In this document: piece by piece, positions 45,134-46,465 of the stretch
How positions within the stretch are numbered: the stretch's first letter is position 1
Layout: each line of letters opens with the position of its first letter
NCBI RefSeq assembly: GCF_029962605.1
Contig: NZ_CP124750.1
Span: 1,922,001-1,986,000 of the forward strand
DNA: 64,000 bases
Direction: 5' to 3'
Origin: Serratia sarumanii
GTDB lineage: Bacteria > Pseudomonadota > Gammaproteobacteria > Enterobacterales > Enterobacteriaceae
Program-made: the position numbers and the translations under genes
The notes under the pieces: generated by a model
What the model was told of the DNA's origin: nothing
The model's database searches: none
Seen by the model: only the letters and a program-made list of their open reading frames with translations

Positions 45134-45541
45134 GTGTTGAACGATCGGTTGAGCCAGTTGAAGAGGGCGCTGCCCGGTTATCTCGAGGCGTGGCGTGAGG
45201 GGGCTTTACCCTCTGACTGGGGGCAGGTGGCTAATCCTGAAGTGGTTGCCGCCCTGTTGGCGGAGTGGGAGGCGCTAAGCGAATTGGCGTCGCTGTTCGA
45301 AACCGCGACTGAAACCCCAACCGATCCCGCCGCGTTTTGGCAGGCGCGCGCCGAGCTGATGGCGCAGCGCAATCATGAGCTCAATGACCAACTGGCGACG
45401 CCAATCCGTTTGCCCGGCGCACGGGTAGCCTTCTTTGGCTATGTGAAAACGGCGGTGATGGACGCCAGGCAGGTGAAGGCGGCAATTCGCGATGCCGGTT
45501 TTACCATTGCGGGCGACAGCCAAAATGAGAACACGGCTTAG
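45134..45541 (+). CDS. Hypothetical protein, 135 residues
   Basis: A cytoplasmic, mostly helical, acidic protein ('LLAEWEALSELASLFETATE', 'FWQARAELMAQRNHELND') with a short beta part near 'VAFFGYVKTAVMDA'. The start is GTG at 45134 after AAAGGA. No family recognised. Its stop overlaps the stop of the convergent 72-residue gene. It lies in the accessory stretch after sdsR, a place where other enterobacteria carry phage-derived genes, so a horizontal origin is possible. Confidence 0.6.
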   Translation: MLNDRLSQLKRALPGYLEAWREGALPSDWGQVANPEVVAALLAEWEALSELASLFETATETPTDPAAFWQARAELMAQRNHELNDQLATPIRLPGARVAFFGYVKTAVMDARQVKAAIRDAGFTIAGDSQNENTA

Positions 45542-45756
45542 CGCGGCTTCTTCTCAAATTTCTCGGCAAAAAAGAACCGCAGCAATTTATGGGTCCACAG
45601 CAGCATTGCGCCGACCACCACCAGCGAGACGACGAAATGCGACAGGTTTTTCGGCGCGGCGTAGCCGTGAGTAAAAGAAACCCCGGCGCCGCTGAGCAGC
45701 AGGGTGGCGATCCAAAAGCCGAGTAGCAGGCACAAGGTACGGAACAGTTTAAACAT
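45538..45756 (-). CDS. 72-residue two-helix membrane protein, candidate microcin immunity protein
   Basis: Starts MFKLFRTLCLLLGFWIATLL; two hydrophobic helices (about 5-27 and 40-62) with a short loop and a basic C-terminus (FEKKPR). GGTGA lies 5 bases before the ATG at 45756; a GTG at 45765 is possible. It follows the candidate microcin precursor on the same strand after 73 bases. Class II microcin immunity proteins are small 2-3 helix inner membrane proteins encoded beside the toxin, so size, shape and place agree; no homology is claimed. Confidence 0.6.
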   Translation of the reverse strand: MFKLFRTLCLLLGFWIATLLLSGAGVSFTHGYAAPKNLSHFVVSLVVVGAMLLWTHKLLRFFFAEKFEKKPR

Positions 45757-45829
45757 TGTTATCACCGAAATGCTGAAAGCGCCGACTGAACGGAAAGACT
45801 CAGCCGGAGCTCTGATTAGTTAAAACCGC

Positions 45830-46174
45830 TTAGCGAGAGCAGGTGTTGCCACCCTTGTTGCTATTGTTATTGCAGTTGCTCTTGTTGCCGCCTTGCCCCA
45901 TGCCGACGTTGCCGCCACCTTTGCTGGCCTCTTTGAAACAGCCGCCGTTGAGCGCGCCCAGCGCCAGACCGCCAAGCCCCCCTAGTGAGCCGGTGATGAT
46001 GCCGTTAATGCAGTCCGGGGAGGTGTGTTTCTGGTACATATTGCCGTCCGACGATTTACCGCCCCCGTTCTTGTTGCCACCGTTGTTGTTGACGCGGCCG
46101 TTGCTGCCGCGGTTGTTGGCAAAGTTACCTGCGCCGGCGATCAGGTGAAAATATTTAGCCTCGATCTCTTGCAT
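45830..46174 (-). CDS. Candidate class II microcin precursor (Gly/Asn-rich, double-glycine-type leader)
   Basis: 114 residues. The N-terminus MQEIEAKYFHLIAGA followed by G-N-F fits the MREI...GA|G leaders of microcins E492 and H47, with predicted cleavage after residue 15 and a 99-residue mature peptide. The mature part has a Gly/Asn/Lys-rich N-terminal region (16-50), a hydrophobic Gly-zipper helix between Cys 55 and Cys 79 ('INGIITGSLGGLGGLALG'), and a Gly/Asn-rich tail with Cys 101 and 112. A strong AGAGGGAG precedes the ATG. Export would need a CvaAB/TolC-type system, which is not in the window. A Gly-rich structural protein is the alternative. Confidence 0.6.
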   Translation of the reverse strand: MQEIEAKYFHLIAGAGNFANNRGSNGRVNNNGGNKNGGGKSSDGNMYQKHTSPDCINGIITGSLGGLGGLALGALNGGCFKEASKGGGNVGMGQGGNKSNCNNNSNKGGNTCSR

Positions 46175-46465
46175 AAAACTCCCTCTTTATCGATTCGGTT
46201 AAATGGCGTATAGCTTGCGCAAGCCAACTGTTTTTAACAGAAAAAACGGCGGGGATAATTACCGGTTCGGATAAGAACAGAGAATTTATTTAAGAGTATT
46301 TTCCAGGCTTATGAGAGTGATGGTGAATGATATTCTCGACGAGGGGGTAGGCGAGCCACCTCGGGCCTTTGCAACGAATGGTCTATCTGCGGCACGCAGC
46401 AAGGTTCAATTCACCCGGCCAATTTGTTAGGATCGCCCGACCTACATGACTATTGGTGCAGTACA
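46175..46465. other. Intergenic region between the microcin candidate and the DUF4377 gene
   Basis: 291 bases with moderately AT-rich DNA and a small CTGTT-AAA-AACAG palindrome (46227-46239). It must hold two divergent promoters, but I see no convincing -35/-10 pair. Confidence 0.4.

Follow-up and report, generated by a model that had tools for sequence, protein, structure and literature searches.

Class II microcins are common in Serratia. Parker et al. 2026 (PMC13101503) report that 96% of S. marcescens assemblies (1,562 of 1,621) encode them and that only 5 of these 1,562 lack a C39-peptidase ABC exporter (PCAT); of 40 cloned candidates 17 inhibited growth and 23 gave no activity. As described there, these microcins carry a double-glycine leader of 15-18 residues and adjoin a small membrane immunity gene, with a PCAT and its fusion protein (MFP) elsewhere in the genome; SM020 and SM064 of strain SM39 sit away from the exporter locus, and none of the 93 microcins of that paper bears the class IIb C-terminal motif. 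For the definition of the leader and of the system we follow PMC10233263.

The DNA considered here (the window) is a 64-kb stretch of a genome from the same genus (G000:C1:1922001-1986000, G000 being the window's own genome). On its minus strand, at 45538..46174, lie a 114-residue open reading frame and a 72-residue two-helix protein, which a sequence-only reading had taken for an undescribed class II microcin with an adjacent immunity protein. Both frames are present, and this is the best supported of the readings we compared. The pair is, with little doubt, a class IIa-type microcin and its cognate immunity protein exported in trans, and very probably gives rise to an exported, rival-killing peptide and a membrane protein that would protect its maker. 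Like the S. marcescens microcins, it combines a leader of this type with an adjoining small membrane protein gene and a PCAT and MFP elsewhere. The word undescribed applies at most to this exact peptide; the kind is already known in Serratia, and PMC13101503 both describes it and validates it in part.

The peptide also resembles the E492 group, whose leaders have the form M-[RK]-E-[IL]-...-GA; it shares this form, a Gly-rich hydrophobic body and predicted PCAT export. Class IIa microcins bear no modification beyond disulfides and lack the Gly/Ser C-terminal motif of class IIb; unlike the E492 group, the peptide appears by eye to end (NNNSNKGGNTCSR) without the siderophore type of this motif. 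It has four cysteines, whereas microcin E492 has none and microcin V has two. Membership in the E492 group (NF051486, cut-off 50 bits) and in the microcin V family (PF17508) was considered and dropped, the peptide giving no significant match to either profile (none at E<=1 for the former).

The precursor peptide and its leader

Table 1. Positions of the features discussed, in window coordinates unless another genome is named
Feature	Position	Strand	Basis
Predicted class II microcin precursor, 114 aa	45830..46174	-	ORF, relatives, dN/dS
Putative leader, double-glycine type (GA), MQEIEAKYFHLIAGA, residues 1-15	46130..46174	-	leader profile, aligned members
Predicted mature peptide, 99 aa	45833..46129	-	computed, assuming cleavage after GA
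Cys55 to Cys79, hydrophobic Gly-rich stretch between two cysteines	45938..46012	-	sequence; role predicted
Cys101 to Cys112, C-terminal Cys loop	45839..45874	-	sequence; role predicted
Ribosome binding site AGAGGGAG	46179..46186	-	sequence, before the 114-aa ORF
Perfect 12-base palindrome GCTTGCGCAAGC, 5' of the microcin gene	46213..46224	-	sequence
Predicted cognate immunity partner (72 aa) with two membrane-spanning helices	45538..45756 (ATG 45756, stop 45538)	-	hydropathy, model, family downstream of loci
orf135, 135 aa	45134-45541	+	ORF; 4-nt stop overlap with the immunity gene, tail to tail
Intact immunity gene beside core-deleted peptide (L043)	G024:C1:1345488-1345712		
Lone immunity gene (L055)	G002:C1:2026005-2026214		beside the DUF4377 gene of G002
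Lone immunity gene (L056)	G003:C1:2665359-2665559		second place in G003, away from its sdsR-site pair

That the 114-residue frame is a real gene is settled by its relatives, because these occupy 17 loci (its own among them) in 15 of the 30 Serratia genomes searched and silent changes are favoured in both genes of the pair. The best match outside its own genome has an E value of 3.3e-54. In comparison with three close relatives, the peptide has a dN/dS of 0.19-0.21 and its partner one of 0.02-0.04, so that the peptide changes faster than the partner at this range; against the more distant L008 the peptide value is 0.26 at dS >1, and that of the partner is not computable. A 16-row profile of the peptide found matches in 12 of 295 genomes and in 10 of 154 genera sampled from the taxonomic family, again with its own included. 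A search of GTDB contigs with the window peptide gave no confirmed relative, probably owing to low-complexity masking in tblastn, and one with the immunity protein gave a single relative, on a Serratia ureilytica contig. The window peptide had no match among plasmids, where the peptide of a relative gave one, and the DNA of the pair had none among phages.

The strong ribosome site described in the sequence-only reading precedes the start codon, and the composition it described is likewise borne out. The predicted mature peptide is computed at 9.66 kDa, within the class II range of about 5-10 kDa, with a pI of 9.7, 27 Gly, 20 Asn and four Cys, at mature positions 40, 64, 86 and 97. Cys55 and Cys79 of the precursor, which bound the hydrophobic stretch, are both kept in 15 of 16 aligned members, and this stretch is probably the membrane-active part. 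The last cysteine, Cys112, occurs in all 16 and its partner Cys101 in 15; the loop that they delimit is probably the uptake part. Four cysteines, which probably allow two disulfides, are found in the mature part of 14 members, with five in another and one in L018, a peptide with a different body. An AlphaFold model of the peptide alone was unusable (mean pLDDT 47).

The leader ranks first among 1785 possible starts in the window, at 9.1 bits with a runner-up at 3.2, when scored with a profile built from nine leaders of E492-group matches above the cut-off; matches with no recognisable leader, L113 (a 14-aa leader) and L118 (a duplicate leader) were excluded from it. Because one of 20 shuffled windows gave a higher chance score (12.2), and because the relatives range from 0.5, for one clear relative, to 22, the leader score is not decisive by itself for microcin identity. 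In length and ending the leader agrees with the class II definition (15-18 residues, GG or GA), and among the 16 aligned members it ends in GG in ten and in GA in six, that of the window among the latter. The leader-profile search that had been suggested as a check gave a divided answer: no model of the Pfam and NCBIfam libraries, including bacteriocin leader models of the TIGR01847 type, matches the window peptide at E<=1, an outcome that the sequence-only reading had named as counting against it, whereas the profile made from E492-group leaders does score it. Within the family, three of 16 members touch the E492-group model NF051486 (best E 0.088) and one touches the MccV model PF17508 (E 0.37). 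We regard the library result as outweighed by what the family and the exporters show. The leader strings of the window peptide were not found in the literature text searched.

A promoter scan recognised no sigma-70 promoter upstream of the microcin gene. The palindrome listed in Table 1 lies within 120 nt upstream of all five intact peptide genes at the sdsR site and is found at none of the 19 other relatives checked; it is a possible operator. As a separate observation, six of 24 microcin relatives (L009, L010, L012, L018, L020 and L091) carry a direct repeat, [TC]TTAC-N5-[TC]TTAC, 46-67 nt 5' of the start codon; the window gene is without it. In our estimation this repeat resembles a CpxR-type box, and it is absent from 272,608 strand-bases of an own-genome control that is G+C-richer to the eye.

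A membrane partner in an accessory cassette

The partner gene begins 73 nt beyond the precursor gene, within the 38-174 nt seen in 19 pairs measured. Hydropathy shows two hydrophobic stretches in its product, and a model made from the single sequence without an alignment places helices at residues 2-27 and 36-68 (mean pLDDT 74); a small inner-membrane immunity protein encoded alongside is what class II systems have, and the protective role is predicted here. Proteins of the same family, marked by LLSGAG- and AP-type motifs (LLSGAG...AAP), are encoded downstream of 16 of the 17 Serratia peptide loci, L018 being the exception. As a query by itself, the 72-residue protein has matches in 15 of the 30 Serratia genomes, and 13 of these are also peptide-positive. 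For the immunity proteins of ten verified class II microcins, PMC9746304 reports no obvious sequence similarity.

The divergence of the peptides is correlated with that of their partners (Mantel r 0.485, with 0 of 10000 permutations as high, for 15 non-redundant pairs), a relation that shared descent could also produce. This comparison used 19 of 31 peptide loci, the 31 being the 17 from the Serratia search and 14 new ones from the profile search; it omitted L016 (a deletion allele), the different-bodied L018, L091, L092, L094-L099, L101 and L102.

The pair had been placed in an accessory stretch after sdsR, and comparison with 27 other Serratia genomes agrees. SdsR/RyeA lies beyond orf135, about 1 kb from the pair; the opposite flank carries a DUF4377-domain gene and a gene that we take from its sequence to be fabV. 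In 13 of the 27 genomes the 5-kb stretch compared holds only sdsR, so that the site is not judgeable. The pair or its remains lie between orf135 and the DUF4377 gene in G013, G009, G029 and G024, and between sdsR and the DUF4377 gene in G003, where orf135 is absent. There is no pair in nine genomes (G014, G001, G006, G007, G008, G017, G018, G025 and G028) where the stretch spans sdsR to DUF4377/fabV. Because orf135 and the DUF4377 gene are directly adjacent, 150 nt apart, in G014 and G001, the pair is an accessory two-gene cassette between them. It is not universal in the genus, as the counts of peptide and partner above also show. The orf135 product has no Pfam or NCBIfam match; the gene is found in 7 of the 28 sdsR loci, the window included, 13 of the 28 being not judgeable.

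The peptide is intact in five of the seven genomes that retain the pair or the immunity gene at this site. In G024 an in-frame core deletion has cut it to 41 residues, keeping the leader and both ends, and the immunity gene is intact. Lone immunity genes occur in G002 and G003 (Table 1), and the 900 nt that precede them encode no such peptide in either genome. Immunity is thus kept beside no working peptide in three cases, the pattern expected if the partner protects against a peptide made by neighbours.

Export machinery

No exporter had been seen near the pair, and a CvaAB-type system elsewhere was predicted to be needed; the former holds, and exporters of this type are present in the same genome. 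The genome has three C39 matches, none of them in the window and the nearest two about 343 and 377 kb away. Two, P1 and P2, are full PCATs with peptidase, membrane and ATPase domains, each preceded by an MFP of HlyD type, and both have an intact triad (Cys32, His105, Asp121). These are the triad residues that PMC9746304 names for CvaB. In the third C39 transporter, as read from its sequence, Asn replaces the catalytic Asp. Two TolC-family channels score above the TIGR01844 cut-off, at 441 and 394 bits. Judged from the genes, each of the five components that PMC9746304 and PMC10233263 list for a class II microcin system is present.

Four relatives in Serratia genomes (G016, G010, G002 and G001) are convergent to and less than 1 kb from a PCAT and its HlyD-type MFP, the one in G001 being L018; no C39 match lies near the other 13 of the 17 peptide loci. 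A fifth relative is linked in the same way in S. marcescens FY, on its plasmid p1 (NZ_CP053379.1). Its peptide, WP_143779261.1, annotated as a hypothetical protein, has four cysteines and belongs to the same family, and a two-helix protein of the same immunity family is encoded downstream, as in the window; its leader ends in GG where that of the window ends in GA, and the plasmid, a mobilizable one, has the genes for its PCAT and HlyD protein directly beside it, an arrangement that the window pair lacks. P2 is 84.6% (G016), 92.8% (G010), 89.7% (G002), 93.8% (G001) and 93.3% (plasmid p1) identical to these linked PCATs, as against 60-61% for P1 and 26-27% for the third C39 transporter, and the MFPs at the four loci in Serratia genomes are 79-95% identical to that of P2. 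PCATs with 94-95% identity to P2 also occur in three genomes that have the pair or its remains at the sdsR site (G009, G013 and G024); in a fourth such genome, G029, the one compared of five C39 matches is a PCAT with 77% identity. Because P2 is the closest to the PCATs beside microcin relatives and its like is found in these four carriers, P2, about 377 kb away, is the probable exporter of the window microcin.

A single exporter type for the whole family was considered and dropped. Two findings speak against P2: the exporter-linked peptide of G001 is the different-bodied L018, and the PCATs compared in G003 (an sdsR-site carrier) and in G006, G007, G008 and G019 (carriers of more distant relatives) share no more than 40-41% identity with either P1 or P2, so that the exporter type is not fixed across the family. 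A C39 match occurs in all 15 peptide-positive Serratia genomes and in 9 of the 15 others (Fisher p 0.017), a contrast that is confounded by reduced genomes, counts matches irrespective of the triad and includes among its negatives G018, which has a profile relative.

The exporter regions hold further peptides of their own. Beside P2, L040 7438-12855 (G000:C1 about 2341437-2346854) encodes a Ser/Gly-rich peptide of 94 residues, whose leader, MKEILSSQLDAVSGG, is clearly of the GG type, and a 425-residue protein in which Pfam recognises a glycosyltransferase domain of TcdA/TcdB type (E 1.6e-28), followed by the MFP and PCAT, the P2 exporter being at G000:C1 about 2343488-2346854; this could be a cluster for a sugar-modified microcin. 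Near the third C39 transporter, a small ORF at L041 9477-9680 (-) has the leader MKKINLSEAENIVGG. The P1 region has another peptide above the E492-group cut-off (61.2 bits; cut-off 50), further leader-bearing ORFs and large ORFs of 1069-1381 residues that we take for NRPS genes. In these respects it resembles the locus drawn for strains Db11 and SM39 in PMC13101503, a likeness that rests on our reading of the text of that paper.

Proposed action, alternative readings and the microcin family

In the mechanism that we propose, the GA leader of the precursor would be recognised by a PCAT with its HlyD-type protein, most likely P2, and cut after GA, so that a 99-residue cationic peptide, probably with two disulfides, would be secreted. 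Following PMC13101503, we divide the peptide into a killing part at the N-terminus and an uptake part at the C-terminus: related cells would take it up by means of the C-terminal Cys loop, and the Gly-rich hydrophobic segment between two cysteines may then harm the inner membrane or obstruct a protein there. In the producer's own inner membrane, the two-helix protein would block this action.

Double-glycine leaders and PCATs also export pheromones. The peptide, which no family model matches, might accordingly be a signal or another exported small protein, with the membrane protein as its receptor or accessory factor. We consider this quite improbable: the four adjacent proteins scanned contain no regulator domain, the partner is kept in the three cases where the peptide is lost or core-deleted, and between close relatives the peptide sequences evolve faster than those of the partners. 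That 17 of the 40 Serratia class II candidates cloned in PMC13101503 inhibited growth also argues for a toxin. That the frame is a glycine-rich ORF arisen by chance, or that it encodes a core structural protein, is hardly credible; its Gly/Asn-rich, low-complexity composition would suit such an origin, but 15 of the 30 searched Serratia genomes have no match, the protein sequence is conserved under selection and its relatives are tied to exporters.

A somewhat more serious alternative, although still an unlikely one, accepts the microcin pair and holds that it is no longer active, having been separated from its exporter and retained chiefly for the sake of the immunity gene. No exporter adjoins the pair, and relatives have lost the peptide while keeping immunity, at this site in both G024 and G002 (by its DUF4377 gene). 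Against this, five of the seven genomes with the pair or immunity at the site have an intact peptide, dN/dS is low, the leader and all cysteines are kept, and a matching exporter is present in the genome.

More tentatively, and with slightly more doubt than belief, we suggest that the window pair belongs to a coherent family of four-Cys microcins with homologous immunity proteins, which would spread as two-gene cassettes and borrow any microcin exporter that the cell or a plasmid provides, a lone immunity gene then marking a weapon dropped and a shield kept. Of the 17 loci of this family, 13 stand away from any exporter gene. Since the sequences of peptide and immunity protein can both be aligned, one can ask which residues set the specificity between peptide and shield, and the family also lets one ask why some strains keep only the shield. 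The window offers a well-supported candidate bacteriocin that comes with a named probable exporter and a putative shield.
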